A stretch of DNA of 64,000 bases, from contig NZ_JABFCX010000003.1 in the NCBI RefSeq assembly GCF_013085255.1, forward strand, positions 629,288 to 693,287. The letters are read 5' to 3'. Both the position numbers and the translations under genes were made by a program. This DNA comes from Parvularcula mediterranea (GTDB lineage Bacteria > Pseudomonadota > Alphaproteobacteria > Caulobacterales > Parvularculaceae). The notes below the pieces were generated by a model. It worked only from the letters and a program-made list of their open reading frames with translations, was not told where the DNA came from and searched no databases. Positions 25,860 through 55,925 of the stretch are shown here, piece after piece (within the stretch, counting starts at the first letter, position 1; every line of letters begins with the position of its first letter).

Positions 25860-25877
25860 ATGCCCCCTACTGGGTAT
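25860..25877. promoter_or_regulatory. CsoR box a (csoR copy 1)
   Basis: ATGCCCCCTACTGGGTAT: imperfect palindrome matching ATACCCC-N3/4-GGGGTAT in its right arm. It starts 4 nt upstream of the csoR copy 1 start codon on the minus strand, so bound repressor would cover the ribosome-binding region and probably the transcription start. Confidence 0.65.
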
Positions 25878-26020
25878 GAGGCTAGGCGATGTTTATTATC
25901 CCTGCAACGTCCATCCCCTGGGGTGTTCCTCCAATGGGGGCGGCTTAGAAAAACCCGCACCTAGAACCGCGCGCAGCTGCTCATCTTGACGATGCGCTGC
26001 GCTACGCCCAGATCGTTCCG

Positions 26021-26038
26021 ATACCCCTGTGGGGTTAT
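26021..26038. promoter_or_regulatory. CsoR box b (glutaredoxin-MauE copy 1)
   Basis: ATACCCCTGTGGGGTTAT, arms ATACCCC and GGGGT(T)AT around TGT. It ends 11 nt before the ATG at 26050 and overlaps a possible -10 (GATACC). Same box type as at 33354, 41434, 42193, 53062 and 55909. Confidence 0.75.
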
Positions 26039-26049
26039 GGAGGCCACTC

Positions 26050-26844
26050 ATGAGTTCGACCACGGCTGATCAGGTTTCAGCGCCCCAGAGCGCCACGAAA
26101 ACCGCGCGCCTCTATCGCATGGTCATGCCCGGCCACACCTGCCCCCACGGCCTCAAGTCGAAATGGTATCTCGAGCGCAACGGCTACACAGTCGAAGACC
26201 ACCATCTGACGACCCGCGAAGAGATAGACGCCTTCAAGGAAAAACACGGCGTCAAAACCACGCCGCAGGCCTTCATCGAAGGCGAGCGTATCGGCGGCTT
26301 TGAAGCCCTGAAGCACCACTTCGACAGCTCCCTCGCCGCAAAGCAGGGGAAGAAGAGCTACGCTCCGGTGCTCGTGATTTTTGGTGTCTGTGCACTGATG
26401 GCATGGGGCGCCAGCTTTGCAGCCACCGGACAACTTCTCAGCCTGCGCGGTATCGAATGGTTCGCAGCGTTCTCGATGGCGGTGCTGGCGATCCAAAAGC
26501 TCCGCGATGTCGAGAGCTTCTCGACCATGTTCCTGAACTACGACCTTCTGGCGAAGAGATGGGTCCCTTACGGCTATATCTATCCGTTTGCTGAAGGTCT
26601 GGCCGCGGTCCTGATGATCGCGGGCGGCAGCTTGGCCCTCGCAGGCTCACCCATCGCGCTTGTCATCGGCACCATTGGCGCGTTCTCAGTCTTCAAGGCG
26701 GTCTACGTCGAGAGGCGCGATCTCAAATGCGCCTGCGTCGGCGGCAACTCGAACGTACCCCTCGGATTTCTCTCCCTGACCGAGAACCTCGTGATGATCA
26801 CCATGGGTCTCTGGGTGCCTTTCAAGATACTGGTGCTGGGCTAG
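26050..26844 (+). CDS. glutaredoxin-MauE membrane fusion protein, copy 1
   Basis: 264 residues from ATG 26050 (TGGAGG just upstream). Residues ~20-100 form a glutaredoxin-like domain with a single-cysteine motif C31-P-H-G (MVMPGHTCPHGLKSKWYL) and the cis-Pro region VKTTPQAFIEGERIGGF. Residues ~110-264 hold about four to five helices of a MauE/DoxX-like domain ending KCACVGGNSNVPLG. MauE proteins take part in disulfide handling in the envelope. The fusion could deliver reducing power or copper across the membrane; its presence under CsoR control supports a copper-stress role. Copy 2 is at 42230-43024. Confidence 0.88.
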   Translation: MSSTTADQVSAPQSATKTARLYRMVMPGHTCPHGLKSKWYLERNGYTVEDHHLTTREEIDAFKEKHGVKTTPQAFIEGERIGGFEALKHHFDSSLAAKQGKKSYAPVLVIFGVCALMAWGASFAATGQLLSLRGIEWFAAFSMAVLAIQKLRDVESFSTMFLNYDLLAKRWVPYGYIYPFAEGLAAVLMIAGGSLALAGSPIALVIGTIGAFSVFKAVYVERRDLKCACVGGNSNVPLGFLSLTENLVMITMGLWVPFKILVLG

Positions 26845-26860
26845 CCCTGGATACGAAAAA

Positions 26861-26878
26861 GGGAGCCCGAGGGCTCCC
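26861..26878 (-). terminator. intrinsic terminator, strongest for the PEP-CTERM gene
   Basis: GGGAGCCC-GA-GGGCTCCC forms an 8-bp stem. On the minus strand it is followed by TTTTTCG, giving a clear rho-independent terminator 28 nt after the stop of the PEP-CTERM-like gene. On the plus strand the stem may also stop the glutaredoxin-MauE transcript, though the following tract is only TCTC. Confidence 0.8.
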
Positions 26879-27667: not shown

Positions 27668-27681
27668 GAGAGGAACTCCAA

Positions 27682-33353: not shown

Positions 33354-33354
33354 A
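33205..33354 (+). CDS. possible 49-residue basic peptide
   Basis: An ORF of 49 codons with a good ribosome-binding site (GAAGGAG, 7 nt from the ATG). The peptide begins MVRSRRVKFRFYPIHFKALF and is basic and hydrophobic. Its stop abuts CsoR box c. Codon use is AT-rich and unlike the neighbours, so it may be spurious; I do not recognise it. Confidence 0.25.
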   Translation: MVRSRRVKFRFYPIHFKALFSFIFETVVRFVVQVLPRTRFKGGGCAVSN

Positions 33355-33370
33355 TACCCCTCTGTGGTAT
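33354..33370. promoter_or_regulatory. CsoR box c (cus operon)
   Basis: ATACCCCTCTGTGGTAT: perfect left arm ATACCCC and shortened right arm GGTAT. It lies 43 nt before the start of the small Cys-rich gene that heads the cusCBA operon, so it probably makes the whole 33414-41152 operon copper-inducible. Confidence 0.65.
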
Positions 33371-33413
33371 TTGGTTCTTTAATCGTCTCATGTTAAGCGA
33401 CTAGGAGATGGCC

Positions 33414-33794
33414 ATGCTCAGACGCATAATCCTCCTCGCTGCCGCCTTGTTCCTGAGCGCGCAACCGGTGATGGCGTGCTGTGTTGAGGGCCATTCCGCG
33501 GTCGTAGAAGTTTCGCCTCCCTGCCACGATATGTCTTTGAAAGAACCGGGATCAGCCGGAGAATCCGGTGAGGTATGTCCCGGCTGTGCCGATTGCGAGA
33601 CGGCTCTGGCAGCGAACGAATTGAAACCGAGCAAGCCTTTGCTCGACTCTTCGTTCGCGAAGGTCCTGCCCTCCACTTCTGCGCAACTTGGTGTCCAGTC
33701 CGAGGTTATCATCAATGGCGCGACGGGTCCGCCGCGCGTTTCACGAAGCCCAGCCGAAAGTCCGGTCTCTCTCTTCCAGAAGCTCCTGATCTGA
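33414..33794 (+). CDS. small secreted Cys-rich protein, cus operon leader gene
   Basis: 126 residues from ATG 33414, which is 6 nt from AGGAG; the ATG at 33408 touches the Shine-Dalgarno sequence. Signal peptide MLRRIILLAAALFLSAQPVMA, then cysteines at ACCVEGH, PPCHDM and VCPGCADCETA, and a Ser/Pro-rich tail ending VSLFQKLLI. It resembles DUF2946-type small proteins that precede copper or heavy-metal efflux operons. A periplasmic copper-binding or buffering role is inferred from the Cys/His content and the CsoR box upstream. Similar stand-alone proteins occur at 43026 and 58145. Confidence 0.7.
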   Translation: MLRRIILLAAALFLSAQPVMACCVEGHSAVVEVSPPCHDMSLKEPGSAGESGEVCPGCADCETALAANELKPSKPLLDSSFAKVLPSTSAQLGVQSEVIINGATGPPRVSRSPAESPVSLFQKLLI

Positions 33795-33803
33795 ACGCGG
33801 AGA

Positions 33804-33842
33804 GCGCGTGCGTGCAGCGCATGCGCAATTTCGCGTTTTTTT
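33804..33842 (+). terminator. hairpin plus T-run between leader gene and cusC (possible attenuator)
   Basis: GCGCGTGCG-TGCAG-CGCATGCGC forms a 9-bp stem with one G-U pair (33804-33826), followed after 9 nt by seven T residues (33836-33842). It could partly terminate transcription so that the leader protein is made in excess over the efflux pump, or protect the upstream mRNA. The spacer before the T-run is longer than in strong terminators. Confidence 0.4.
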
Positions 33843-33857
33843 GATCATGGAGCTTCT

Positions 33858-35069
33858 ATGCGTTTTCTGACAATTTTCTTGTTCTGTTGCCTGCCGTCTA
33901 GCGCAGTCGCGCAGACGTTCAGCGAGCTGGAGGGGCTCCTCCGGGACCATCCGGCCCTCGCCGTGTATGGGTACGAAACCGAGGCCGCGCTCGACCGTAG
34001 TCGCGCGGCGACTGCACTCCCCGACCCCGTCGTTTCCCTTGGTGTCAACAATCTGCCAGTGAGCGACCCGGCGTTCGACCGTTTCCTACCCACCAACCGG
34101 GCCATCGGTGTCCGGCAGGAATTCCCGAACTTCGCCGGGCGGCGCGCCAGGGCCTCGCAAGCGGAAGCTATGGCGGGACTATCGGAAGCAATGCAGGCGG
34201 CACGCTTCAGTGCTCTGAGAGCCGAGCTCATCGTCCTTCTTCATGAGAAAGAACGCATCGCAGCGGAACGGATGCTGGCTGAGGAGCGACGCGAAAAGTA
34301 CGATCGCCTCTCCGACGTGGCGTCTGCGGAAATCAGCGGAGGGCGCCCCATCGTCTTTCGTCTTGCCGAGATCGAGGCTGAGCGTGCGGGCGTCGCCCGG
34401 CAACTGGCCGCGCTCCTCGAAGCCGAGGCCGCCGCCGACGCAGCGCTGATCGACCTCGTAGGCTTCGTGCCCACAATCGCAGCGCCGACGATCGAAGCCC
34501 GCGTTTGGGACGGCGACCCTGCCAGCTTCCACACTGTCCGTGTTCAGATGAACGATATCGAGCGGGCCGAAGGCGCAGTCTCCGAGGCGCGCGCGGCTTT
34601 CAGGCCCAATTGGGGCGCGCAGGTCACCTACCAGCAGCGCGAGGAGGGCTCAGGGGCACCAGGCGAAGTCTTCGCCGGTGACGACTGGGTCTCCGGCATG
34701 GTCACAATGACCGTCCCGCTCTGGGCTGGCCGTAGCCAGGCTCCCCGCCTCCGTGCTGCGAAGGCCGAAGAAGCTGCCGCTCGGTCGAGCTATCTGGCGG
34801 CGGCTCGCTCTGCACGGGCGCGCTACGAAGCTTTGCACTCTCAAATGGAAAGCGCAAAAGCCCAATTCTCGATCTTGGAAGCTGAAATCGCTGCGGTCGA
34901 AGACGAGATTCAAAGCCAGCTCAGAACGTATGAGAGCGGTGTCGGAGACTACGCTCCTATCATCGACGGCGAGATCACCCTCCTTCGTCTCGAGACGGAG
35001 ATCATCCGTGAGCGCACTCGAGCCGCCCAGACTGCGGCGCGTCTGAACAGCCTGCTGGTGACGCCATGA
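33858..35069 (+). CDS. cusC: TolC-family outer-membrane efflux protein (CusC-like)
   Basis: 403 residues. Signal peptide MRFLTIFLFCCLPSSAVAQ, then the OEP repeats: ALPDPVVSLGVNNLPVSD near residue 55 and VRVQMNDIERAEGAVSEARAAFRPNWG in the second half, the paired helices that form the periplasmic tunnel. Outer-membrane channel of the tripartite pump with the adaptor and RND protein encoded immediately downstream (4-nt overlap with the adaptor at 35066). Copper/silver specificity is assigned from the CusA-like pump and CusF-like protein in the operon. Confidence 0.88.
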   Translation: MRFLTIFLFCCLPSSAVAQTFSELEGLLRDHPALAVYGYETEAALDRSRAATALPDPVVSLGVNNLPVSDPAFDRFLPTNRAIGVRQEFPNFAGRRARASQAEAMAGLSEAMQAARFSALRAELIVLLHEKERIAAERMLAEERREKYDRLSDVASAEISGGRPIVFRLAEIEAERAGVARQLAALLEAEAAADAALIDLVGFVPTIAAPTIEARVWDGDPASFHTVRVQMNDIERAEGAVSEARAAFRPNWGAQVTYQQREEGSGAPGEVFAGDDWVSGMVTMTVPLWAGRSQAPRLRAAKAEEAAARSSYLAAARSARARYEALHSQMESAKAQFSILEAEIAAVEDEIQSQLRTYESGVGDYAPIIDGEITLLRLETEIIRERTRAAQTAARLNSLLVTP

Positions 35070-36772
35070 GAATCCCAAGCCTTCTTCTCCTTGCCCTTCT
35101 CACAGCCCTCGCCGCGTGCGGGGAAGCTTCTCTTAAGCGTTCGGATACAGCCGAAGCAGAGAGCAGCGGGGAGGCGCTCTACACCTGCCCGATGCACCCG
35201 CACTACATTTCGACGGACCCTGATGGCTCCTGTCCGATCTGTGGGATGGATCTTGTTCCAGCCTCCTCGGATGCCGCCTTACCCACAACTGGCAGCGCTG
35301 GCATCGCGGTCACACCGGAGATCATCCAGACCATCGGTGTCCGGACGGCCGTCGCAAAGGTTACGCCGATGACGCAAATGCTGCGGGCCTTCGGAACCGT
35401 TGAAGCGAACGAACGTCAGGAGACTGTTGTGGCCTCCCGCGTCGAGGGATGGATCGAAGATCTCGCCGTCCGCGCGGTTGGGGATCCCGTCGATCCGGGT
35501 ACGGTGCTTTACAGGCTCTATAGCCCGGATCTGATCGCCGCGCAAAAGGACTTCCTCAACGCCCTCGATATCGGCAACGAAGCGCGCATCTCGGCCGTGC
35601 GCCAGCGTCTGGTTTCGCTCGGCATGCAAGGGCCCTCCATCGCTGAGCTCGAACGCAGCCGCGAGGTGATCGAGCGCGTCGCGATCCGGGCGGAGGATGG
35701 CGGGATCGTCTCTGAGCTGAACACCCGCGACGGTGACTACATCAAGCCGGGTGACGATGTGATGACGCTCCAGTCCTACGAAGATGTCTGGGTGATCGCC
35801 GACATGCCCGAGCAGGACTTGCACCTCGTCTCCGCAGGCCAAGCGGCGACCCTCGACTTCCCCAGCGCGCCGGATGCCGACAGCAGCGGCAGGGTGGATT
35901 ATGTCTACCCTACCGTCGATCCAGCCACCCGCACAGGGCGCCTAAGAATCGTGGTGAGCAATGCCTCCGGACGGCTGCGCCCGGGGGCCTATGCCGACAT
36001 CCGCATCGAGACCGAAGCGGGGGCGATGCTGGCCGTGCCGAGCGAGGCCGTGCTTCGCGACAGCCGGGGTGCCCACGTCATCCTCGCTTTGGGCGAGGGC
36101 CGCTTCCTACCGCGTGTGGTCGAGACCGGCATGTCGGCCGGAGGCATGACCGAGATCGAAGCGGGCCTTCAAGAGGGCGATCGCGTGGTCGCTAGCGGAC
36201 AGTACCTTCTCGATAGCGAAGCCAAGCTTCGCGAGGGCTTCTCCTCCCTCAACCGTCTGCAGGCTGACGAAGACACGCCGCTCGACAGGATTCCGCTCGA
36301 TCAGGCGACGCTCGCCCAGATCGACCATTTCGCCGATATGGCGCTCTATTTCCACGAGGCGCTCACCGACGGCTATGCCATCGAGCCGAGCTTCATTGAT
36401 CCCCTGCTTACCTTGAGTGAGAGTCTTGCCGGACGTTTTGGCGGCACGCGGCTCGGACCCATTGTCACCGAAACACAGGCTGCACTCCGCGAAGCCAAAG
36501 CTGCCGAGAAGGGCGAGCCCCTAGCCGAGGCGCTCTCTGACCTGATGGAAGCCTTTGAACCTTGGCTGATGGAGGGTGCTCCGCAGCATTATGCGGATGA
36601 AGGACTGACGCTGTTCAGGGATGTCAACGGCCACCTCTGGCTGCAAGAGAGCTCTGTTCTCCGGAACCCCTATGGCACTGCGGATGCCGAGTCGGTGGCC
36701 TGGCCGGAGCGGATGGCCGCCGTTCGGGAGACCGAGCCTCGGCCGGCCTCCGATCCGCATGCGAACCACTAG
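35066..36772 (+). CDS. cusB: efflux RND periplasmic adaptor with heavy-metal-binding domain (CusB-like)
   Basis: 568 residues, longer than most adaptors. Lipobox TALAAC (Cys18) suggests a lipoprotein. Residues 40-63 are a heavy-metal-binding module (YTCPMHPHY..GSCPICGMDLVP; C41, C56, C59). The membrane-fusion body follows (VASRVEGWIEDLAVRAVGDPV; DGDYIKPGDDVMTLQS). A C-terminal extension (~410-568, ending NGHLWLQESSVLRNPYG) resembles the DUF3347-like domain of some copper adaptors but lacks its cysteines. Bridges the RND pump and the outer-membrane channel and may hand Cu(I) to the pump. Overlaps cusC by 4 nt. Confidence 0.88.
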   Translation: MRIPSLLLLALLTALAACGEASLKRSDTAEAESSGEALYTCPMHPHYISTDPDGSCPICGMDLVPASSDAALPTTGSAGIAVTPEIIQTIGVRTAVAKVTPMTQMLRAFGTVEANERQETVVASRVEGWIEDLAVRAVGDPVDPGTVLYRLYSPDLIAAQKDFLNALDIGNEARISAVRQRLVSLGMQGPSIAELERSREVIERVAIRAEDGGIVSELNTRDGDYIKPGDDVMTLQSYEDVWVIADMPEQDLHLVSAGQAATLDFPSAPDADSSGRVDYVYPTVDPATRTGRLRIVVSNASGRLRPGAYADIRIETEAGAMLAVPSEAVLRDSRGAHVILALGEGRFLPRVVETGMSAGGMTEIEAGLQEGDRVVASGQYLLDSEAKLREGFSSLNRLQADEDTPLDRIPLDQATLAQIDHFADMALYFHEALTDGYAIEPSFIDPLLTLSESLAGRFGGTRLGPIVTETQAALREAKAAEKGEPLAEALSDLMEAFEPWLMEGAPQHYADEGLTLFRDVNGHLWLQESSVLRNPYGTADAESVAWPERMAAVRETEPRPASDPHANH

Positions 36773-36781
36773 GGGGTTGTC

Positions 36782-40404: not shown

Positions 40405-40423
40405 TCTGCAGGACAGAAATGCC

Positions 40424-41621: not shown

Positions 41622-41636
41622 CCTCAGAGGATGAGT

Positions 41637-42192: not shown

Positions 42193-42210
42193 ATACCCCC
42201 AAGGGGTAAT
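42193..42210. promoter_or_regulatory. CsoR box e (glutaredoxin-MauE copy 2 / cop operon)
   Basis: ATACCCC-CAA-GGGGTAAT, the best symmetric copy after box b. A -35-like TTGCCA at 42171 and a -10-like TATACC at 42192 (15-nt spacer) surround it, so repressor would block the promoter. It lies 19 nt upstream of the glutaredoxin-MauE copy 2 ATG. Confidence 0.75.
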
Positions 42211-43024: not shown

Positions 43025-43025
43025 C

Positions 43026-43424: not shown

Positions 43425-43484
43425 GAATACTCCGCAGGCGAGCTTTCGCCTTTGCCTTCGGAGTCTCACCAGAACGAGGATATT

Positions 43485-45404: not shown

Positions 45405-46195
45405 GACACTTTCTCAACAGCCTTGCGGTCCTAGCTGTGACGGTCGCCGGCAGCTCCGCCTTCGCACAATCGAGCAGTGCGAACCCCTGGGATGCTGCCG
45501 ACGCAGTCTATGGTCCCGATACGATGCGTAAGGCCCGCGAGCGGCTTCTTGAGGAGAACGGCCGGACGCCCTTTGGCCTCTTCATGCTCGACCGGTTCGA
45601 GTGGCAGGACACGGGCGGGGACGGAACGCTTCTGTGGGATGCGCAAGCCTATTACGGCGGTGATCTTCGGAAGATCTGGATGAAGACCGAGGGCGATTAT
45701 GCTCTCGATGAGGGCGCCCTCGAAGAGGCAGAGGTCCAGCTCCTCTATTCCCGCGCGATCTCGCCCTTCTTCGATCTCCAGGCGGGCATTCGCCACGACA
45801 TCGAGCCCGACGGGCTGACCCATCTCGCGATCGGTATCCAAGGCCTCGCGCCCTACTGGTTCGAGACGGACACGGCGGTGTTCCTGTCCGAGGATGGCGA
45901 CGTCACCGCCCGCATTGAAGCTGAACTCGAATGGTTCCTGACCCAAAGGCTGATCCTCCAGCCAAGGATCGAAGCCGAACTCAGTGCCCAGACGATCGAC
46001 GACCGAGAGCTCGGTTCAGGCCTTACCTCGCTCAGTATCGGCGGTCGCCTGCGGTACGAGTTCGCCAGAGAGTTCGCGCCCTATATCGGCGTGGAGCACC
46101 GCAGCAGCTTCGGCGGAACAGCTGACTTCATCGAAGCGGCCGGAGGCGATCCGAGCGAGACCCTTGGTGTCTTCGGTACACGGATCTGGTTTTAG
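45401..46195 (+). CDS. copB: copper resistance protein CopB (outer membrane)
   Basis: 264 residues, CopB/PcoB family. Signal peptide ending SSAFAQ; the mature protein has FGLFMLDRFEWQDTGGDGTLLWDAQAYYGGD, the family hallmark, followed by amphipathic beta-strands (FFDLQAGIRHDIEPDGLTHLAIGIQG) and a terminal aromatic residue (GTRIWF). Unlike many CopB proteins it lacks an N-terminal Met/His-rich domain. Outer-membrane partner of CopA. Start overlaps copA's stop. Confidence 0.92.
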   Translation: MRHFLNSLAVLAVTVAGSSAFAQSSSANPWDAADAVYGPDTMRKARERLLEENGRTPFGLFMLDRFEWQDTGGDGTLLWDAQAYYGGDLRKIWMKTEGDYALDEGALEEAEVQLLYSRAISPFFDLQAGIRHDIEPDGLTHLAIGIQGLAPYWFETDTAVFLSEDGDVTARIEAELEWFLTQRLILQPRIEAELSAQTIDDRELGSGLTSLSIGGRLRYEFAREFAPYIGVEHRSSFGGTADFIEAAGGDPSETLGVFGTRIWF

Positions 46196-46204
46196 GAGGC
46201 CGTC

Positions 46205-47188
46205 GTGAATCTCGATCTCATCGAACCGAACATCCATCCCATTCTGGTTCACTACACACTGGCTTTCGCCAGCACGGCAGCCATCCTCTATCTCCTGCGG
46301 CTGGTCCCGAACCTGCGGCAGAGGCAGGGCATGACGATCGCGGCGGATTGGATGCTGTTCCTCGCGGCGGGATTCGTCATTGCCACGATCGCCGCGGGCT
46401 TTGAAGCCTACTACAGCGTGGCCCATGACGGGCCCTCGCACGAGGCGATGACCACGCACCGGAACTGGGCCGTGCCTTCGGGGCTCGCCGTTCTAGCCGT
46501 TGCCACGTGGCGCTGGCTTTCGCGCAAGGAAGCGCCTGGCGGGGGCCAGGTCGCAGGAATCGCCGTCGCGGGGCTCCTGGTCGTGATCACCGCATGGTGG
46601 GGCGGCCAGCTCGTCTACAGCTATGGCCTCGGCGTGAAGCAGCTCCCCGAAAGCTCAGGGAACGGACACGACCATGACCACGGGGGCGAAACCAGCGGCG
46701 ATCACGAAGACGATGGCCATGACGGCGACAGTCATGCCGATCAGGGCCTGACAACCACGGATGGAACGGACTTCGAAGCAGACCTCTCTTCGCCCAATGC
46801 CGCAGTCAAAAGCCTCGCCGCAGCCTACGCAACGGGACAGGCCGAAGCCGTCAGATCGGTCCTGTCGAGCGACGTCCTCATCGCCGAAGGCGGCAAGATC
46901 GAAGACGGCTTCGCTGCCTATGCAGGCCATCACCTACCGGCGGACCTCCGCGCCTCTCAGGAACGGACGTCAAAAGTCCTCGAGCGGAAGACCATCCGCC
47001 TAGGGACAAACGGTGCTGCAGTCATCACCCGCTCCCGCGTGGAAGGTACCAGCGGAGCAAGCATCCTCCTTGAAACGGCTCTGCTCGAACAACAGGGAGA
47101 CGCCTGGAGCATCACCCACCTGCACTGGAGTTTCAGCGCCGCCCCTGCGCCCTCGGATAACCATGGAGACGACAGCCATGAGCACTAA
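46205..47188 (+). CDS. DUF2231 membrane protein fused to His/Asp-rich linker and NTF2-like domain
   Basis: 327 residues, GTG start. Residues ~1-145 contain four helices with the DUF2231 opening (NIHPILVHYTLAFAST). Residues ~150-190 are an acidic His-rich linker (GHDHDHGGETSGDHEDDGHDGDSHAD). Residues ~190-310 look like an NTF2/SnoaL-like alpha-beta domain (AVKSLAAAYATGQAEAVRSVLSSDV...DAWSITHLHWSF). The His tract suggests Cu/Zn binding in the periplasm. Co-transcribed with copAB. The combination is unusual; the function is unknown. Overlaps the next start at 47178. Confidence 0.75.
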   Translation: MNLDLIEPNIHPILVHYTLAFASTAAILYLLRLVPNLRQRQGMTIAADWMLFLAAGFVIATIAAGFEAYYSVAHDGPSHEAMTTHRNWAVPSGLAVLAVATWRWLSRKEAPGGGQVAGIAVAGLLVVITAWWGGQLVYSYGLGVKQLPESSGNGHDHDHGGETSGDHEDDGHDGDSHADQGLTTTDGTDFEADLSSPNAAVKSLAAAYATGQAEAVRSVLSSDVLIAEGGKIEDGFAAYAGHHLPADLRASQERTSKVLERKTIRLGTNGAAVITRSRVEGTSGASILLETALLEQQGDAWSITHLHWSFSAAPAPSDNHGDDSHEH

Positions 47189-48497
47189 CGACAATTACGA
47201 CGAAGGAAGCCTGTCTCTCTGGGGCACCGTCGCCATGGGCACTGGCGTCATGATCGGTGCAGGGATCTTCGCCCTGACGGGGCAGGTTGCGGAGCTCTCC
47301 GGGGATCTCTTCCCCTTCGCTTTCGTCCTTGCAGCGATCATCAGCGGGTTCTCCGCCTACAGCTATATCAAGGTCACGAACGTCTATCCGTCCGCAGGCG
47401 GGATCGCGATGATCCTGAAGAAAGCCTACGGGAAGAGCACCGTCACTGGCGCAGCCTCGCTCCTGATGGCTTTCTCGATGATCATCAATGAAAGTCTCGT
47501 GGCACGCACATTCGGCAGCTATGCCTTGAGGCCCTTCGGCGTTGAGGAAGGCAGCTTCATGGTGCCGGTCCTCGCGGTCGGCCTCGTGGTCTTCGCCTTC
47601 GTGGTCAACATCGCCGGAAACAAGTGGATCGGCGGGATCAGTCAGGTCGCGGCGGTGATCAAGATCGGCGGGATCCTGATCTTCGGGATCGTCGCCATGT
47701 GGGCGGCGGGGTTCTCGTTCGAGCCCTACCAGAACGGCGTTGCGAATTCGTCCGGCATCGGAGGCTTCATCGCCGGAACAGCCCTCGCTATCCTCGCCTA
47801 TAAAGGGTTCACGACGATCACCAATTCCGGCGGCGAGGTGAAAGAGCCGAAGAAGAATGTCGGCCGTGCGATCATCATCTCTCTCGCCATCTGCACGATC
47901 GTCTACCTCGTTGTGGCCTTCGGAGTCGCCTCGACCCTGACCGTCGATGAGATTGTCGCGGCCAAGGACTACGCGCTAGCGGAAGCGTCGCGCCCAGCGC
48001 TCGGCAATCTCGGTGTCGGTTTCACGGTTGTTATTGCGCTGATCGCTACGGCGTCCGGCATTCTGGCGAGCGTCTTCGCCGTCTCTCGCATGCTCACCAT
48101 GCTGACGGACATGGACCTCGTTCCGCACAGTCATTTCGGCATGTCCGGGCCGATCCAGCGGCATCTTCTGGTCTACACGGTCGTCATGGCCGCAGTGCTC
48201 GCCGCCTTCTTCGACCTGACCAGGATCGCTGCGTTGGGAGCCATCTTCTACCTCGTCATGGACATCATCATCCATTGGGGCGTCTTGAGAAAACTCAAGA
48301 GCGACGTCGACGCGAGGGCCTGGGTTGTCTGGACGGCCATCGTCCTCGATGCCGTGGCTCTGACCGCCTTCACTCTGATGAAGGCGCAGCAGGACCTTTT
48401 CGTGGTCGCGATCGCCGTAGTCGGCATCATCCTCACATTTGTTCTTGAGCGGATATTCCTGCGCCAGCAATTGCAGAAAGAGGAGCAACACGGATGA
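47178..48497 (+). CDS. APC superfamily permease
   Basis: 439 residues from ATG 47178 (GGAGAC upstream), starting inside the end of the DUF2231 gene; a longer frame from 47013 is discarded. About 12 helices of the APC fold: GTVAMGTGVMIGAGIFALTGQ in helix 1 contains the GAGIF substrate loop, and AILAYKGFTTITNSGGEVKEPKKNVGRAI is helix 6 with its following loop. The family carries amino acids or related cations by proton exchange. Its presence in the cop operon suggests uptake or export of an amino acid linked to metal handling, such as His or Cys; this is a guess. Confidence 0.85.
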   Translation: MSTNDNYDEGSLSLWGTVAMGTGVMIGAGIFALTGQVAELSGDLFPFAFVLAAIISGFSAYSYIKVTNVYPSAGGIAMILKKAYGKSTVTGAASLLMAFSMIINESLVARTFGSYALRPFGVEEGSFMVPVLAVGLVVFAFVVNIAGNKWIGGISQVAAVIKIGGILIFGIVAMWAAGFSFEPYQNGVANSSGIGGFIAGTALAILAYKGFTTITNSGGEVKEPKKNVGRAIIISLAICTIVYLVVAFGVASTLTVDEIVAAKDYALAEASRPALGNLGVGFTVVIALIATASGILASVFAVSRMLTMLTDMDLVPHSHFGMSGPIQRHLLVYTVVMAAVLAAFFDLTRIAALGAIFYLVMDIIIHWGVLRKLKSDVDARAWVVWTAIVLDAVALTAFTLMKAQQDLFVVAIAVVGIILTFVLERIFLRQQLQKEEQHG

Positions 48498-48952
48498 AAG
48501 AGCGCTTCACCAGGCTTTTCGCGAGGCCGGAGATGGCAGTGGTCATCTTCGCCTTTCTCCTGAACTTTATTTGGGAGTTCTGGCAGCTACCCTACTACGC
48601 CAACGCGCCGAACATGCCGCACTGGGAGGGTACCAAGATGTGTACCCTTGCCACGTTCGGTGACGCAGGCATTGCGCTCGCAGCCTTTCTGGCGGCGAGC
48701 TTCGTAGCCGGAACCCGGGACTGGTTGCGAGACGGTGCGGAGAAGAAAACCATCGCAACATTCATCGCCGTTGGCCTCGCCATCACAGTCAGTGCTGAAT
48801 GGGTGCTCGCGGACCTTTTGGGTCAGTGGAGTTACGCCGAGGGTGCTCCGACGATCTTCGGCATCGGTCTGACGCCTTTTCTACAATGGTTGGTCGTCCC
48901 GATTTTCGTCATTCTCCTCGCAAGACCCTACCTCAGAGGGATGCAGACATGA
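48494..48952 (+). CDS. four-helix membrane protein, unknown function
   Basis: 152 residues with four hydrophobic helices (about 14-30, 56-78, 88-108, 122-145). Notable residues: [12 protein letters not shown] in helix 1 and [17 protein letters not shown] following it, a motif often seen in small metal- or quinone-linked membrane proteins. No family name recognised. Overlaps both the APC permease (ATGA, 48494) and the P-type ATPase (48949), so it is translationally coupled to the copper ATPase. Confidence 0.7.
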
Positions 48953-51171
48953 GCCACGATCCGTGCACGCATCACAATTCACTTGATGGTGCCGATGCCA
49001 AAGGGGAAGCCGCCCCGAATGGTAAGTTCGATCACGTGCCGAAGGACTACGATGGTACGGTCTTCACCTGCCCCATGCACCCGCAAGTGCGCGAGACGAA
49101 GCCTGGTCCGTGTCCCATTTGCGGCATGGCGCTCGAGGCCGAAGGCGCGGCCCAGCAGCCTTCGGACGATACCGAGCTGAAAGACATGACCCGCCGGTTC
49201 TGGGTCTCAGCCATTCTTACCCTGCCGCTTCTCGCCTACACGATGGGCGATATGATCCCCGGTCAGCCCCTTGGGGAGATGATCGAAGGCAACTGGACCC
49301 AGTGGGCGCAGCTCTTTTTCGCAGCGCCCGTCGTTCTATGGGGCGGCTGGCCGTTTTTCACCCGCGGCCTCGCGTCTTTCAGAACGGGGCATCTCAACAT
49401 GTTCTCGCTGATCGCGCTCGGGGTCGGTGTGGCCTTCGTCTATTCGCTCATCGCCACGTTCCTGCCGGCGATCTTCCCGCCTGCCTTCCGCGGACCCGGC
49501 GGTCATGTCGCCGTCTATTACGAAGCTGCGGCCGTCATCGTCACGCTGGTCCTGCTCGGCCAGGTATTGGAGCTTCGCGCGCGAAGTGCGACGTCCGGTG
49601 CGATCCGCGCGCTTCTCGAACTCGCCCCGCCCGAAGCGCTGCGCATCGCACCGGACGGCTCCGATGAAATGGTACCGATTGAAGAGCTCAGCGAGGGTGA
49701 TCGCTTGCGGGTGCGTCCCGGCGAGAAAGTCCCGGTGGATGGCACGGTCGCCGAGGGCAGGTCCAGTGTCGATGAGAGCATGATCACCGGCGAGCCCCTT
49801 CCCGTCTCGAAGTCAGAAGGCGACAAAGTGACGGGAGGGACCGTCAACGGCTCTGGCGGTTTCATAATGGTGGCTGATCGTGTCGGGGAAGATACCGTCC
49901 TTTCGCAAATCGTCCGAATGGTGAGCGAAGCCCAGCGTTCTCGAGCTCCCATCCAGAAAACCGTGGACAAGGTGTCCGCAGTCTTTGTGCCAACGGTGAT
50001 CGTCACCGCGATCATTGCCTTCATCGCGTGGTGGGCGCTCGGCCCGCAGCCTGCATTCAGCTACGCCTTGGTCAACGCTGTCGCCGTCCTTATCATCGCC
50101 TGTCCCTGCGCTCTCGGTCTTGCGACGCCCATGTCGATCATGGTCGGGACCGGTAAAGGTGCCCGGCACGGCATTCTGATCAAGAACGCCGAAGCTCTCG
50201 AGTCCTTCGAAAGCGTGGATACCGTGGTCGTCGATAAGACCGGTACGCTGACCGAGGGCCGGCCCGCTCTCGTCGGTATCGAAGTCGCATCCGGTTTCGA
50301 CGCGGACGCCCTCCTTGCGGATGTGGCGGCGGTCGAGCGGAGCTCCGAACATCCCCTCGCCGAAGCGATCGTGAACGGCGCAGCAGAGCGCTCCTTGACC
50401 ATACCGCACGCTGAAGGATTTCAGTCAGTGACCGGCCAGGGCGCCCACGGCTCGGTGAGCGGTCGTCGTGTCGCCGTCGGGAACAGCAAGCTGATGGCTT
50501 CGGAAGCTGCCGCGAGCGATCACTTCCAAGCGGCCGCGCGCCGAAGAAGGGCTGACGGCGAAACTGTCATGTTCGTCGCCGTCGACGGCGTGGCGGCCGG
50601 GATCATCGCGGTCGCCGACCCGATCAAAAAGAGCACCCCGGAAGCCATCGCCATGCTCCACGCAGCAGGGCTCGAGATCGTCATGCTCACCGGCGATGCA
50701 AAAGGCACAGCCGAAGCCGTCGCAACCCGACTCGGTATCGACGCGGTGCATGCGGATGTTTCGCCCGAAGACAAGTTTTCCGTCGTGTCCGAACTCCAAA
50801 AAGGCGGCAAGCGCGTCGCCATGGCTGGCGACGGCATCAACGATGCCCCTGCGCTTGCCAAGGCCGATGTCGGTGTAGCGATGGGCACGGGAACCGACGT
50901 GGCGATGGAAAGCGCAGCCGTGACCCTGGTCAAAGGCGATCTTCGCGGCATTGCCGCCGCGCATCGCCTGAGCAAGATCACGATGCGGAACATTCGGGAG
51001 AATCTCTTTTTCGCCTTCGTCTACAACGCCGTCGGCGTCCCGGTGGCTGCCGGTGTTCTCTACCCGTTTTTAGGCATTCTTCTCAGTCCGATGATCGCCG
51101 CAGGTGCGATGAGCCTGTCCTCCGTATCGGTCATCGGTAATGCGCTCCGCCTCCGTCGGCAAAAGCTTTAA
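48949..51171 (+). CDS. copA: copper-translocating P1B-type ATPase
   Basis: 740 residues from ATG 48949, overlapping the previous stop. N-terminus: instead of a CXXC HMA domain it has a heavy-metal-binding module C41-PMHP...C55-P-I-C58-GM. Core motifs: C385-P-C387 in helix 6 ([10 protein letters not shown], the Cu(I) site), phosphorylation Asp429 in [19 protein letters not shown], and the hinge [12 protein letters not shown]. The N- and A-domain motif [13 protein letters not shown] is present. Exports Cu(I) from the cytoplasm to the periplasm for CopA oxidase or Cus. The CPC motif places it in the Cu+ (P1B-1) group. Also often called copA; distinct from the oxidase at 43485. Confidence 0.95.
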
Positions 51172-51189
51172 CCCTCCGAGGTTTTGGAA

Positions 51190-51606
51190 ATGATCCTAGC
51201 TGTCTTGCTCGCCAGCACGATCTTCGTGACGACGCTGACCCTACACTGGGCGATCATGAAGCGGATCTCGATCGATCGATCACGTCTCACCGCCCCGATC
51301 TTTGCCGGAATATGCCTCATCCTCCTGACCATGCATTTCCTCGAGGTCGGCCTCTACGCGTTGGGGTTCGAACTCGGGCGAGCGTTGGAACTCGGTGACT
51401 TCAGAAAGCCGCCTTCGGCGGATTTCATGGATGTCTATTTCTTCGCTCTGGCCACCTTCACCACGCTGGGCCTTGGAAAGGTGATGCCTACGGAACACCT
51501 TGCTTTCATCGCGGGTGTTTCCTCCTTTAACGGATTTCTTTGCATCTCCATGTCGGCATCATTTCTCTTCAAGCTCACACCCGAAGTGACCGACCAATCA
51601 GAATAG
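51190..51606 (+). CDS. two-helix-plus-pore ion-channel-like protein
   Basis: 138 residues from ATG 51190, 8 nt after GAGG. Two N-terminal hydrophobic segments (ILAVLLASTIFVTTLTLHW; IFAGICLILLTMHFLEVGLYALGF), then DVYFFALATFTTLGLGKVMP and a final helix (HLAFIAGVSSFNGFLCISMSASFLF). The TTLGLGKVMP segment aligns by eye with the TTVGYGDITP filter of two-TM potassium channels but reads GLGK instead of GYGD, so K+ selectivity is doubtful. It follows the copper ATPase, so charge compensation or cation leak is possible. Family assignment is by pattern only. Confidence 0.7.
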   Translation: MILAVLLASTIFVTTLTLHWAIMKRISIDRSRLTAPIFAGICLILLTMHFLEVGLYALGFELGRALELGDFRKPPSADFMDVYFFALATFTTLGLGKVMPTEHLAFIAGVSSFNGFLCISMSASFLFKLTPEVTDQSE

Positions 51607-51660
51607 ATTTTTTCCGGGCAGGCTGACCGACTTTCCACCGAAAAGCAGAAAGGACAGATC

Positions 51661-53022
51661 ATGATCCTCAAGACGATAAAAACCGATGGCCTTGCGCACC
51701 TCTCTTACTTCCTCGGTGACGGGAACGAAGCCGCTGTCATCGATCCGCGCCGGGACATCGAGATCTATATCGAAGAAGCGCGGAAGCGCGGCATGCGGAT
51801 CACCCATATTTTCGAGACACACCGGAACGAGGACCTCGTCTCCGGCGCGCCGATCTTGGCTGAGGCGACGGGCGCCAATGTTCATCATGGGCCGAACCCT
51901 GCTGGCGTTGTGAGCTATGCCGAAACCACGCGCGAGGGCGACCGGTTCGAAATCGGTTCCGCCACGATCGAAGTTCTAGAAACCCCGGGGCATACGGATG
52001 ACAGCCTGTCCTTCGTCCTCTACGATCAGTCCTTCGACGATGGTCCTGTCGGCGTTTTCACCGGCGATGCCCTCTTCGTCGGCGATGTCGGCCGCACGGA
52101 TTTCTATCCGGATCGAGCAAGAGAGGTGGCTGGCCTCCTTTACGATAGCCTTCAGAAGCTGGTCGGGCTTGGCGACCAGGCGCTTCTCTATCCCGCCCAC
52201 GGCGCAGGCTCCGTATGCGGATCAGGTATGGCTGATCGTGAGTTCTCCAGCATCGGACATGAGCGCCGCAACAATCCGCGCCTCCAATTCGATGACCGCG
52301 AGGCTTTCATCGAGGCCAAGCTTGCCGAGGAACACCCCACGCCGCCCTACTTCTCGCTGATGGAGAAGCTGAATCTCGAAGGCGCCTCAGCCATGCGCCG
52401 GTACCTTCTTCCCGATCCGGTCTCGCCCGGAGCTTTGCAGGAAAACGGCAAGACCCAGCTCGTTGATATCCGGGGGATCGCCGATTTCCTCGGCGCCCAT
52501 GCGCCTGGATCCTTCTGTATCCCCGACGATATGCTCGCAGCTTTCGCTGGCTGGCTGCTCGATCCAGGAGGAGAAGTTCTTCTGATATCGCGCAACGCTC
52601 AGCAGGCGGAAGCGGCCGTACGGACACTTGGCAGGATCGGCTTTGACCATGTGACCGGATTTCTTCCCGGCATCATGCCTGTCGCCGCTTCGGGCAACCC
52701 CTTCCGAAGCGTCGGAGTCGTCGACACGCAGACAGTCAAAAGCCGTCTCGGTTCGGACGGCTGGACACTCCTCGACGTGCGCTCCGCCGAAGAATTCGAT
52801 GCTGGCCACATTGAAGGAGCGCAAAACGTCTATCTCGGCCATCTGGCTGATCGGATTGGCGACGTACCTTCGGAAGGCAACGTCACCGTCATGTGCGGAA
52901 GCGGCGCTCGGGCCACCATTGCGGCATCGGTTCTGTTAAAACACGGACGCAGCGATATCGACGTTTTCCTCGGCTCGACGAAGGCCTGGCTCGCGGCAGA
53001 TCACCCGGTCGTCAAGCCCTGA
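51661..53022 (+). CDS. MBL-fold hydrolase with two rhodanese domains (persulfide dioxygenase-like)
   Basis: 453 residues. Residues ~1-240 are a metallo-beta-lactamase domain (FLGDGNEAAVIDPRRD; THIFETHRNEDLVSG; ETPGHTDDSLSFVL; FTGDALFVGDVGR; YPAHGAGSVCG). The first metal-ligand motif is HRNEDL instead of HxHxDH, as in some ETHE1-like enzymes with one iron. Two rhodanese domains follow (~260-350 and ~365-453); the second has the active cysteine in VMCGSGARA and IDVFLGSTKAW. Family members oxidise glutathione persulfide or sulfide. In a copper block it may handle sulfur released from thiol-copper chemistry. Confidence 0.88.
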   Translation: MILKTIKTDGLAHLSYFLGDGNEAAVIDPRRDIEIYIEEARKRGMRITHIFETHRNEDLVSGAPILAEATGANVHHGPNPAGVVSYAETTREGDRFEIGSATIEVLETPGHTDDSLSFVLYDQSFDDGPVGVFTGDALFVGDVGRTDFYPDRAREVAGLLYDSLQKLVGLGDQALLYPAHGAGSVCGSGMADREFSSIGHERRNNPRLQFDDREAFIEAKLAEEHPTPPYFSLMEKLNLEGASAMRRYLLPDPVSPGALQENGKTQLVDIRGIADFLGAHAPGSFCIPDDMLAAFAGWLLDPGGEVLLISRNAQQAEAAVRTLGRIGFDHVTGFLPGIMPVAASGNPFRSVGVVDTQTVKSRLGSDGWTLLDVRSAEEFDAGHIEGAQNVYLGHLADRIGDVPSEGNVTVMCGSGARATIAASVLLKHGRSDIDVFLGSTKAWLAADHPVVKP

Positions 53023-53061: not shown

Positions 53062-53078
53062 ATACCCCATAAGGGTAT
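53062..53078. promoter_or_regulatory. CsoR box f (DUF5676 gene)
   Basis: ATACCCCATAAGGGTAT, arms ATACCC and GGGTAT around a 5-nt centre. It lies 41 nt upstream of the DUF5676 gene in the gap after the MBL-rhodanese gene, which is itself probably in the P-type ATPase operon. Confidence 0.65.
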
Positions 53079-53119: not shown

Positions 53120-53374
53120 ATGCGTCTGATACCACTCGGTCACGCCCTGAGCCTGTTTCTGGCTTTCAGTTTCGTGGTCTGCATCCTGTGGGGGCTTATG
53201 ACGCCCCCGTCGCTCCACATGCACCCTGCTTGGGAAGCACTCCTGCCAGGTTTTGAGTTCCTGACCTTGCCGGGCTTCGCCATCGGTCTCGTCGAGAGTT
53301 ACCTCTATGGCTGGTACATCGCCCTGATCGTTGTACCTCTTTACAGGCTCTTCGATCGTCCATCAGCACGGTGA
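53120..53374 (+). CDS. DUF5676 small membrane protein
   Basis: 84 residues from ATG 53120 (AAGGAGG upstream; a longer frame from 53093 has no such site). Two or three helices. The sequence MRLIPLGHALSLFLAFSF...LLPGF..LPGFAIGLVESYLYGWYIAL matches what I know of the DUF5676 family, small inner-membrane proteins frequent in copper and metal clusters. It stands alone under CsoR box f. Molecular function unknown. Confidence 0.85.
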   Translation: MRLIPLGHALSLFLAFSFVVCILWGLMTPPSLHMHPAWEALLPGFEFLTLPGFAIGLVESYLYGWYIALIVVPLYRLFDRPSAR

Positions 53375-53380
53375 TTGTTA

Positions 53381-53397
53381 CCTGACCGGCGGTCAGG
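53381..53397. terminator. bidirectional hairpin between convergent gene ends
   Basis: CCTGACC-GGC-GGTCAGG, a perfect 7-bp stem with a 3-nt loop, lies between the DUF5676 stop (53374) and the ATP-grasp-like gene's stop (53393). No T-run follows on either strand, so termination efficiency is uncertain. Confidence 0.45.
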
Positions 53398-54670
53398 AAG
53401 GCACCACAAAGACAGCTCCGAGCCCGCCTCCGGGGGTTCGGAGGTTTGTCGTCTGACCTTGATAAATGCGGGCAGCAACCAGTTCGGTTCTCCCCGCGTA
53501 GCGAAACAGGCGGATGTCGAACTTCAAAGCGTCGATATTCTCTGCGCCAGCCAGTGCGCGCATCGGCGGGTCCACGCGCTTTTGCGCCACATACCCCCCA
53601 GCAATGATGTCCTGCCAGACGCGCTTGGTGAGCTTGTCGCCGCGATAGACAGCGCGGCTACCGAAGCCCGCATAGGGCTTGAAAAAGTACCGCTTCCTCT
53701 CAGCCCAGAGATGCTCGGCGCTGTCACCCGTCACGAGCACCGTTTCCGGGAGCTTTTCGAGCGTCCCTGTGACATCGCTCGGCAAGCCCGATGATGCCTG
53801 CCAGCCAGGGTCCGTCCAAGTCACAAGGTTTCTTTTATCCGCATAAAGAGCATGATGAAGAGGCGCGGGGCTCACCACCGCTGCGCCCTGCTGCAGGGCA
53901 TCGCTGAGCACGCGATTTTCTGGATCCTCCAGCAGAAAGTCGCAGCTCCGGTTATAGACCAGGTCGATCTCCTTGCCCTCGGCCCATAAAGACCCGCCTT
54001 GCAGCGCCAGGACCCGTGGGTCGCAGATCACCGCTTCGACCCCCTGAAGCTCGAGTTCCTCCGCGGCGAGTAGCATGTCCGGGTAGAGAAACTGCTCCGT
54101 TGGCTGCTCATCGACGATCGCGACCCGTCTCAGGGGGTGTTCAGGCCTGACCAGAGCGAACTCTTTTTTCAGGGTGCGAACGATACCGCCACCGACAGGG
54201 TAGATCGTGCCGAACGGCACTTCCCTACAGCTCTCTTCCGTCGTGCTGACGGCTCTCTCGAGGCGCTCGACGAGAAAGGCACCCCCGGCGTTCGTGTTGA
54301 CCTCGATAAGTTTCGGACCCTCCGGCGAGAGATGGAAATCAAACCCGAGGAACAACCCCCTCGTGTCGAACGGCGCGGTCGGTGGGTTTGTTCGCTCCGC
54401 CACAAGGCGGCGGAAAGACGGCGAGGCTGCCGCTGCTTCAATGGCTGACGCCTGCACCTCCATATCCCTGAGCTGAACTTCGTCGATGAAAACCGCCGTT
54501 GCTGCGAAGAGGTGCGGCCGGCTTTCGAAGAGGTGGCCTAGTTTGGCCTGTGCTTGCCCAGCGATGGTCTGCGCGATGCCCTTGGGGTCGATCGCGAGAC
54601 ACCGGCAATAGGCATTCAGCGCAACGATATCGTCATTGCAGGTCGTTTTGCAGTCCATAACGTCCTTCAC
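53393..54670 (-). CDS. ATP-grasp-like protein, apparently circularly permuted, copC-copD operon
   Basis: 425 residues, GTG start at 54670 preceded by GGAGG. An N-terminal Cys-rich stretch (MDCKTTC, YCRC). ATP-grasp-like motifs occur in unusual order: the Mg-binding-type E123-x-N125 (PKLIEVNTNAGGAF) comes early, while the nucleotide-binding-type K331 block (RYFFKPYAGFGSRAVYRG), the hinge-like YVAQKRVD and KFDIRLF with D385/R387 come late. Canonical ATP-grasp enzymes have E-x-N at the end, so a circular permutation is suggested. Such enzymes ligate carboxyl groups to amines or thiols (peptide or glutathione-like products). Last gene of the copC-copD operon, 19 nt after copD. Product unknown. 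Confidence 0.7.
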   Translation of the reverse strand: MKDVMDCKTTCNDDIVALNAYCRCLAIDPKGIAQTIAGQAQAKLGHLFESRPHLFAATAVFIDEVQLRDMEVQASAIEAAAASPSFRRLVAERTNPPTAPFDTRGLFLGFDFHLSPEGPKLIEVNTNAGGAFLVERLERAVSTTEESCREVPFGTIYPVGGGIVRTLKKEFALVRPEHPLRRVAIVDEQPTEQFLYPDMLLAAEELELQGVEAVICDPRVLALQGGSLWAEGKEIDLVYNRSCDFLLEDPENRVLSDALQQGAAVVSPAPLHHALYADKRNLVTWTDPGWQASSGLPSDVTGTLEKLPETVLVTGDSAEHLWAERKRYFFKPYAGFGSRAVYRGDKLTKRVWQDIIAGGYVAQKRVDPPMRALAGAENIDALKFDIRLFRYAGRTELVAARIYQGQTTNLRTPGGGLGAVFVVPS

Positions 54671-54689
54671 GAATGCTCCTCCCCAGAGG

Positions 54690-55517
54690 CTACCGATCAG
54701 GACCCGTCATCGTGGTCGCAAGGGACACGACAACAAGAACGAGCCCGAACAGAACCGCCTCTGAAGCCAACACGCGCCGGAGCAGCTTCGTCCCCGCTTC
54801 GGGGGCGGCAAGGATCCGTTCGGTGACGACCCTCTTGTTGTAGGCCCCTAGCCCAAGCGCACCGACCGCCAGGAAAAGCTTGAGCAATAGAAGCTGGCCA
54901 TATCCCGTCGCGAAGACCGCTTCGAGGCCACCCGCAAGTCTCAGAAGCAGGCCGAGCCCGAGCAGAAATGCGGCGGGCACGGCCCAGACAGCGATCGCAC
55001 TGAACCGAACGAGCCTCGCAGACAGATCGCCAGGCGGCGCCCCCGCCCTCGGGAACAGCGTCCATGGCGCGGCAATCCAGAACGCGGCGAGTCCCACGTG
55101 AATGATGACCATCAGAGGACTGAGGAACGGATCGTCGATCCCTTGCGTGTGACCACCAAGGCCGAAACCGATGACGAGGACTGCTGCGGAGCCTAGGGTA
55201 AGCTGCGGAAATGAGAAGAAACGGGTCAGGACGAGCCCGCACCCTCCAATAAGAAAGACGAGGATCTGCGCCCGGCCCGCCTGCCAGATGAACGGTGCCA
55301 TCGACCAGTCGACAGGCTCGCCCAACCCACCACTGAGCTGAACAGTCATCAGCACGAACCGCAGCAGCACGGCGGTCAGGACCATCACGCCGAGCGGCAC
55401 CAAGGGCTTCGTGTTGTGCGCGATGCCGAGCTGGCGGTGCAGAGCGATGCCCGCCGCCAGGAGGATTGTGCCGTAGAGCGAGGTTTTTGTCAGAACAAGG
55501 AGCGCGCAGAGCGCCAC
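54690..55517 (-). CDS. copD: CopD family copper resistance membrane protein
   Basis: 275 residues from GTG 55517, 2 nt after the copC stop (TGA-AG-GTG) with a GAGGG ribosome-binding site inside the end of copC; an ATG at 55586 would overlap copC by 67 nt. About eight helices. The CopD signature block is visible as LVIGFGLGGHTQGIDDPFLSPLMVIIHVGLAAFWIAAPW (the His-bearing helices thought to bind Cu). Inner-membrane protein that with CopC takes up or partitions periplasmic copper. Order copC-copD-ATP-grasp is a single operon under box g. Confidence 0.88.
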   Translation of the reverse strand: MALCALLVLTKTSLYGTILLAAGIALHRQLGIAHNTKPLVPLGVMVLTAVLLRFVLMTVQLSGGLGEPVDWSMAPFIWQAGRAQILVFLIGGCGLVLTRFFSFPQLTLGSAAVLVIGFGLGGHTQGIDDPFLSPLMVIIHVGLAAFWIAAPWTLFPRAGAPPGDLSARLVRFSAIAVWAVPAAFLLGLGLLLRLAGGLEAVFATGYGQLLLLKLFLAVGALGLGAYNKRVVTERILAAPEAGTKLLRRVLASEAVLFGLVLVVVSLATTMTGPDR

Positions 55518-55519
55518 CT

Positions 55520-55879
55520 TCAGCCCTCGAGTTCGAAGCTGATCCTGCCCAGCATCACATGGCCGTCCTTCGCCATGGCGCGCCACTCGATCACGTAAGA
55601 ACCAGGCTCGAGATCGGGGAGGTCAGCCTCGTAGTCGGCTGCGAAACCGCCGTCAGGCGAGAACGCGAGATCTTCATCATCGAGACCGACTCCTGAGATC
55701 GTCAGCCCGACCAGACGGACATCGCCACCGAACGAAAACGAAAAACCGGACGGGGCTTCGCTGAGGCTCGCACCGTCTTCGATGCTGGATTCCTCGACCG
55801 TGACATGCGCCAGGGCTTGGCCGGACAGAATCAGGGTCACGCAAAGAGCGACGGCCGAAAAGGTTTTGAGATACGCCAA
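55520..55879 (-). CDS. copC: periplasmic copper-binding protein CopC
   Basis: 119 residues. Signal peptide ending SGQALA, mature start HVTVEESSIEDGASLSEAPSGFSFSFGG: the N-terminal His after cleavage is the Cu(II) ligand in CopC proteins. The cupredoxin-like beta body ends GSYVIEWRAMAKDGHVMLGRISFEL, carrying the conserved DGH motif. No Met-rich Cu(I) loop (MxxM) is seen, so this looks like the Cu(II)-only type. Delivers or buffers copper for CopD. First gene of the operon; box g lies 30 nt upstream. Confidence 0.92.
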   Translation of the reverse strand: MAYLKTFSAVALCVTLILSGQALAHVTVEESSIEDGASLSEAPSGFSFSFGGDVRLVGLTISGVGLDDEDLAFSPDGGFAADYEADLPDLEPGSYVIEWRAMAKDGHVMLGRISFELEG

Positions 55880-55908
55880 GGTTGGACCTCCAGAAAGACG
55901 CTCTGCCT

Positions 55909-55925
55909 ATACCCTACCAAGGTAT
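55909..55925. promoter_or_regulatory. CsoR box g (copC / DUF3703-MBL divergent promoter)
   Basis: ATACCCTACCAAGGTAT, arms ATACC and GGTAT around CTACCAA. It lies between copC (minus, start 55879) and the DUF3703-MBL fusion gene (plus, start 56008) and may control both. Confidence 0.6.

Follow-up and report, generated by a model that had tools for sequence, protein, structure and literature searches.

A probable CsoR regulon of broad gene content in the copper block of Parvularcula mediterranea

Described CsoR systems and the Parvularcula locus

The copper-sensing repressor CsoR of Bradyrhizobium liaoningense has been described as a protein of 91 amino acids (aa) with the ligands C33-H58-C62, whose box, TATACCCCTACCGGGTATA, overlaps the -10 element; deletion of csoR derepresses both divergent promoters, the csoR mRNA starts at the A of the ATG and is leaderless, and the output of the two promoters that share this single box differs 1.9-4.8-fold (PMC5057107). 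In B. diazoefficiens, deletion of csoR has been reported to raise copA expression strongly (PMC10457146). We have analysed 64,000 nucleotides (contig NZ_JABFCX010000003.1, positions 629,288 to 693,287; the whole stretch is hereafter the window) of the alphaproteobacterium Parvularcula mediterranea, whose relatives are mostly marine; they include a block of copper genes with palindromes of the form ATACCCC-N3/4-GGGGTAT that were taken, in an original prediction made from the sequence, as CsoR boxes. The B. liaoningense system as described provides a direct precedent for the repressor, its ligands, the box and the geometry of the start: its box, ATACCCC-N3-CGGGTAT, is one mismatch from the consensus and is positioned at the csoR start, and its C-H-C register is matched by the CsoR proteins of the window. 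The system described there is a csoR-cueA divergon with a P-type ATPase and one shared box, whereas the block studied here has seven or eight boxes and probably about nine transcription units, including resistance-nodulation-division (RND), multicopper oxidase and glutaredoxin-MauE genes.

Other described members of the family share only some of these traits. Mycobacterium tuberculosis RicR is a CsoR-family copper repressor of a multi-operon regulon to which its own gene and that of a multicopper oxidase belong, but the regulon comprises five operons, belongs to an actinobacterium and has other effectors (PMC10141476). NreA of Mesorhizobium, an alphaproteobacterial member of the CsoR/RcnR family with a dyad within the promoter and a leaderless mRNA, differs in responding to nickel and in having its operator between -35 and -10 (PMC12724321); here, the operator would overlap the -10 element if the transcript were leaderless. 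The CsoR regulons described for gut Firmicutes contain mostly csoR and copA (PMC4938975). In the open-paper literature we found no report pairing CsoR with Hyphomonas, and among the matches listed for CsoR together with MauE the titles looked unrelated.

The boxes and their association with csoR

When mismatches to the dyad were counted over both arms, palindromes were confirmed at all eight coordinates of the original prediction, five of them with one mismatch, one with two, two with three and none perfect. The training of a half-site weight matrix used 90 distinct boxes, all from relatives and none from the window; since these boxes had been preselected for at most two mismatches to the predicted consensus and for a family gene downstream, the matrix is not blind to that motif. 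The eight sites occupy matrix ranks 1 to 8 within the window, and seven of them score 16.5-23.3, against a best score of 14.5 in 20 Markov-simulated 64-kb sequences. In the genome (3.21 Mb, three contigs), five sites, N3 and N4 spacings together, have no more than one mismatch, and every one of them lies inside this block, so that, judged by near-perfect sites, the box is not common in unrelated intergenic regions, an outcome that the original prediction had named as adverse. Hits with up to three mismatches are near background (for N3, 50, with 29 for the motif reversed as a control; for N4, 36 and 46, respectively), and therefore the box at 55909 is assigned from its matrix score and its position. 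Beyond the block there are five sites with two mismatches (C1:1164582, C1:1226232, C1:1261748, C2:874419 and C3:29377), each covered by an open frame of at least 340 codons, which is suggestive only.

Of 200 genomes sampled from the order of the host, 111 encode a CsoR homologue, and 94 of these have an N3 box with no more than one mismatch, as do 5 of the 89 others (Fisher p 2e-32), while the reversed motif made no difference (13/111 vs 10/89). A contig scan with CsoR2 yielded 80 loci in relatives, of which 74 have C-H-C in register. Once four distant or misregistered matches (L104-L107) were excluded, the remaining 76 loci (1.26 Mb) contained 119 boxes, 25 of them without a mismatch, 61 with one and 33 with two; controls with scrambled arms, whose counts were not de-overlapped as the observed ones were, gave 0/0/5 (reversed motif), 0/6/1 and 0/0/12. 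For 112 of these 119 boxes, a homologue of a gene of the window block starts within about 220 bp, and the seven unassigned ones have two mismatches each. The genes behind the boxes, some boxes counting for two, are csoR (75), DUF5676-like genes (14), P-type ATPases (10), a small exported protein homologous to that leading the Cus run (8), copC (6), glutaredoxin-MauE (4), DUF305 (2) and DUF2231 (1), csoR being over-represented because the loci were fetched through it. Spacing as a marker of target class was discarded as inconsistent, since the csoR boxes of relatives include 27 with N4 and 48 with N3. Most alphaproteobacterial loci have a single box upstream of csoR, unlike those of Luminiphilus/Halieaceae, where all 11 csoR loci (L090-L095, L097-L101) carry tandem boxes exactly 34 bp apart, start to start; in a Hellea genome (L075, 8728-8762), csoR is directly preceded by two perfect boxes whose starts are 18 bp from each other.

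The two repressors announced for the block, csoR1 and csoR2, are indeed encoded there, with C33-H58-C62 intact in both. The proteins are 92% identical, pass the PF02583 (Trns_repr_metal) cut-off of 22.8 bits with 94.5 and 96.2 bits, and have CsoR proteins as the two best matches among solved structures; their best-scoring NCBIfam model is RicR. As would be expected of CsoR, a box placed as a predicted self-operator lies 3 bp ahead of both csoR ATGs, and C/G-rich dyads lie as putative operators at the target promoters. A third CsoR homologue is encoded outside the window (C2:115974-116246; 57% identical to csoR2, with the same C-H-C ligands), with a poor three-mismatch box just upstream. This third csoR (L027, L109) is followed by frames for a 212-aa protein without a Pfam match, for a His-rich heavy-metal-associated domain protein and for a small membrane protein, MerT-like by eye.

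Taken together, the confinement of the near-perfect sites, their co-occurrence with csoR, the same gene families behind the boxes of relatives and the B. liaoningense box make it very probable that the palindromes are operators of CsoR and form one regulon, as predicted, with the proviso that the copy at 41604 is within chance. Several observations weigh on the other side. Twelve of the 80 relative loci, one of them at a contig edge, have no box with up to four mismatches in the 220 bp before csoR; 17 of the 111 csoR-positive genomes lack the N3 box and 5 of the 89 csoR-negative ones have it. The homologue search across the 200 genomes admits distant family members, at identities of at least 30%, and the relative loci are often close kin and the genomes related, so that the counts are not independent. 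The curated models were not reached by the window repressors, either for RicR (NF052430; 81.1 and 80.9 bits, cut-off 175) or for RcnR and FrmR (at most 41.4 and 33.9 bits, cut-offs 138 and 133). The contrast in open frames between off-block and in-block sites is weak, because the genome is GC-rich and mechanical frames overlap some in-block boxes. Finally, the site at 41604 has a matrix score of 8.0, inside the null range of the simulated sequences.

This last point bears on how many operators there are. Of the "seven to eight copies" of the prediction, seven are above chance by the matrix and the copy at 41604 is indistinguishable from it, and a narrower form of the same reading, with seven CsoR operators and a chance match at 41604, appears somewhat favoured given that low score and the near-background number of sites with up to three mismatches; on the other hand, the site directly precedes the DUF305 gene, and two relatives (L045 and L078) have boxes with two mismatches and one mismatch 14 and 112 bp, respectively, from their DUF305 genes. 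That all the palindromes are products of chance or composition, to which the C and G runs of a GC-rich genome could give rise, has a practically negligible probability in view of the genome-wide confinement, the co-occurrence with csoR and the matrix scores, which reject a chance origin for seven of the eight against the 20 simulated sequences.

It could also be the case that the boxes are real but serve another copper regulator, namely CueR, a CopR/CusR-type protein or the product of the CadC-like gene situated in the block (31182-33089). The genome does encode MerR-family and OmpR-family proteins. However, the box tracks csoR homologues in the 200 genomes and abuts csoR in 47 of 76 csoR genes, and we consider this explanation highly improbable. 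Neither CueR nor CusR/CopR was retained as a candidate for binding the boxes, since no protein of the genome exceeds the curated cut-offs (best CueR score, 99.9 bits against 147.4; best CopR-type score, 225.8 against 279.2), which are strict, a single one of 14 control genomes reaching each. The protein most similar to CueR obtains a better score from the MerR model (125.9 bits, short of the 150.85 required), and a frame that by eye looks like merT overlaps it. A signal other than Cu(I), such as persulfide, as for CstR, or another metal, would fit the presence in the regulon of a metallo-beta-lactamase (MBL)-rhodanese gene (51661-53022), which reads as persulfide dioxygenase-like with the models below cut-off, and the described induction of the B. 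liaoningense divergon by Zn and Cd too (PMC5057107). It is nonetheless very unlikely, because C-H-C is kept and the neighbouring genes are largely copper genes. CstR is not known to carry the histidine ligand.

The copper block and the csoR starts

The block opens with csoR1 (25581..25856, reverse strand; 91 aa; PF02583, E 5.1e-27), whose ATG is preceded by an N4 box with two mismatches (25860..25877; matrix score 16.9). An N4 box with one mismatch (26021..26038; score 16.5) lies 11 bp ahead of glutaredoxin-MauE fusion 1 (26050..26844, forward strand; PF07291, E 1.8e-12; glutaredoxin domain just under the Pfam cut-off). The block is interrupted at 26906-33089 by three genes that lack both a copper-related match in NCBIfam and a box scoring above chance. 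Thereafter, an N3 box with one mismatch (33354..33370; score 19.1) is found 37 bp ahead of a probable Cus-type operon of six genes with Pfam/NCBIfam matches and gaps below 70 bp (33408..41152, forward), which would form a single transcript: a Cys/His-rich small exported protein without a family match, an outer membrane factor, a CusB-like adaptor, a CusA/CzcA RND pump, CusF and a PepSY membrane protein. The gene csoR2 follows (41155..41430, reverse; 91 aa; PF02583, E 1.5e-27), with an N4 box with one mismatch (41434..41451; score 23.0) whose start-facing arm is GGAG. The weak box-like sequence (41604..41621; N4, three mismatches) is 9 or 15 bp ahead of the gene for a DUF305/CopM-like membrane protein (41631..42161, forward; PF03713, E 3.5e-9; CopM model under cut-off).

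An N3 box with one mismatch (42193..42209; score 21.4) lies 20 bp ahead of glutaredoxin-MauE 2, first gene of a probable 10-gene operon (42230..53022, forward) with family matches, several of them below cut-off. It continues with genes for a DUF2946-like protein (below cut-off), a PcoA-type multicopper oxidase, a candidate CopB (264 aa, named from its position, NCBIfam giving no match), a DUF2231 protein, an APC-type permease (below cut-offs), a membrane protein, a copper P-type ATPase, an ion channel and the MBL-rhodanese protein. The N3 box upstream of the DUF5676-like gene (53062..53078; one mismatch) has the highest score in the window, 23.3; the gene (53120..53374, forward) encodes a protein with two transmembrane segments (PF18926, E 2.6e-4, below cut-off), its start having been picked by eye through a Shine-Dalgarno (SD) sequence. 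A unit on the reverse strand (53393..55879) comprises copC (55520-55879, with a TTG start, labelled from sequence and position), copD (54690-55586; CopD model match below cut-off) and a gene for a 425-aa protein (53393-54670). The N3 box at 55909..55925, with three mismatches and a score of 20.4, lies between copC and a divergent gene in which DUF3703 is fused to a metallo-beta-lactamase-fold domain (56008..57381, forward, start by eye; PF12487, E 2.1e-38, and PF00753, E 1.4e-9, both on the longer frame 55882-57381).

The boxes thus lie between genes and before starts, as predicted, those at 25860 and 41434 ending 3 bp before the csoR ATGs and the rest 9-82 bp before likely starts, some of which were selected by eye. 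That every downstream gene is copper-linked was borne out by family for most of them, whereas DUF5676, DUF305 and DUF3703-MBL are linked by association only. The csoR plus glutaredoxin-MauE units constitute an internal duplication, with 79-80% DNA identity across two pieces, and the two fusions (26050-26844 and 42230-43024) have monothiol-looking CPHG/CPYG motifs by eye. The 425-aa protein has no Pfam match at E 0.1, its C-terminal half being ATP-grasp-like by eye. A second metal efflux set (58558-61085; IhpA/IhpB-like, models below cut-off), with no box above chance, comes after the copper block. Just past the window (L108, C2:693288-712000), a MerT-like frame accompanies a MerR-like gene, and other frames look by eye like those of ParB, a recombinase and a conjugative coupling protein, so that the metal block may belong to a mobile island.

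The position of the box at the csoR start recurs in relatives. Among 76 csoR upstream regions (74 from relatives, L088 and L102 having also been excluded, plus the two of the window), 47 have a box with up to three mismatches within 12 bp of the start, and in 36 of the 38 distinct regions with a start-abutting box the gap is 3-6 bp. Eleven of these 38 have a TTGAC in the 30 bp ahead of the box, which in six of them lies 8-9 bp before the box; with transcription starting at the ATG, it would fall at about -30 to -37 in five of the six, the remaining one (L066) having an uncertain start codon. Neither csoR1 nor csoR2 has TTGAC in the 30 bp upstream of its box. An SD core (GGAG, GAGG or AGGA) is present in 12 of 31 distinct csoR upstream regions with the box within 12 bp and in 22 of 30 where it lies farther away (p 0.01), a contrast that would suggest leaderless csoR transcripts; effector genes have the core in 21 of 36 cases, and their contrast with the start-abutting csoR regions is not significant (p 0.14). 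Given the start-abutting boxes, the start mapped in B. liaoningense and the precedent of NreA, csoR transcripts are probably leaderless here, or nearly so. Since the start-facing arm of csoR2 is GGAG and TTGAC is absent, the operator of the window csoR genes may alternatively embed a ribosome-binding site.

Breadth of the regulon and possible exchange of regulators

In the scheme that we propose, either or both CsoR paralogues would occupy the dyads and block transcription at low cytosolic Cu(I). At csoR1 and csoR2, at each of the two glutaredoxin-MauE units, at the Cus-type efflux operon and the DUF5676 gene, and between the divergently oriented copC and DUF3703-MBL genes, the dyad probably overlaps the core promoter. 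Cu(I) bound to C33-H58-C62 would release CsoR from DNA, and this release would induce cytoplasmic export by the P-type ATPase, periplasmic oxidation and export by the multicopper oxidase and the Cus-type pump, and both repressor genes. DNA binding, the copper response, the extents of the operons and the leaderless or nearly leaderless csoR transcripts are what we infer in this scheme.

The original prediction regarded one regulon with so many operons in 30 kb as unusual, which the number of sites does not support: when N3 sites with no more than one mismatch are counted, 21 of the 200 genomes of the order have at least three, the maximum being eight, and the source genome has three. What the locus adds to the known CsoR systems is the breadth of the regulon, not the number of sites. 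Graded copper thresholds across the boxes, which the original prediction put forward as a possibility, are a reasonable hypothesis. Boxes ahead of P-type ATPase and DUF5676 genes in relatives average 0.56 mismatches (n=18 distinct) and csoR boxes 1.11 (n=65; Mann-Whitney p 0.003, relatedness ignored), whereas those before other effector genes, with a mean of 1.42 (n=12), are not nearer to the consensus than csoR boxes.

Homologues of glutaredoxin-MauE were also found in 300 of 72,556 plasmid records, and three stretches of alphaproteobacterial plasmids from those records (57 kb) had no CsoR-like box with up to three mismatches. One stretch encodes a CueR over the cut-off and another a MerR-like protein below it, while the third has no CueR/MerR-like regulator within the stretch. 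Roseovarius indicus pRIdsm_01 (L110) resembles the block in having glutaredoxin-MauE and DUF305 genes with an ion channel and a P-type ATPase nearby, and differs from it in its CueR, over the cut-off, and in lacking any CsoR-like box (up to three mismatches) in 24.8 kb. These three loci suggest a rewiring between regulators, by which a copper programme with glutaredoxin-MauE/DUF305 that goes with CueR/MerR-like proteins on two of the three plasmids would in this order be run by CsoR through per-promoter boxes, including the start-abutting operator of csoR; we hold this tentatively and as somewhat doubtful. If it were true, some 20 bp would accommodate the csoR operator, the -10 element and the translation start together, and a start-facing arm with the sequence GGAG or GAGG may serve as a ribosome-binding site as well.

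The analysis provides a matrix-supported CsoR regulon in Hyphomonas/Parvularcula-type bacteria, in which efflux, oxidation and redox genes all appear to be under CsoR, a joint role that in Gram-negative bacteria is usually credited to CueR and CusRS/CopRS. Natural operators of varied match to the consensus thereby become available for one type of repressor. Moreover, the shared operator ties the little-known families glutaredoxin-MauE, DUF5676, DUF3703-MBL and perhaps DUF305 to copper, so that roles for these proteins can be put to the test.

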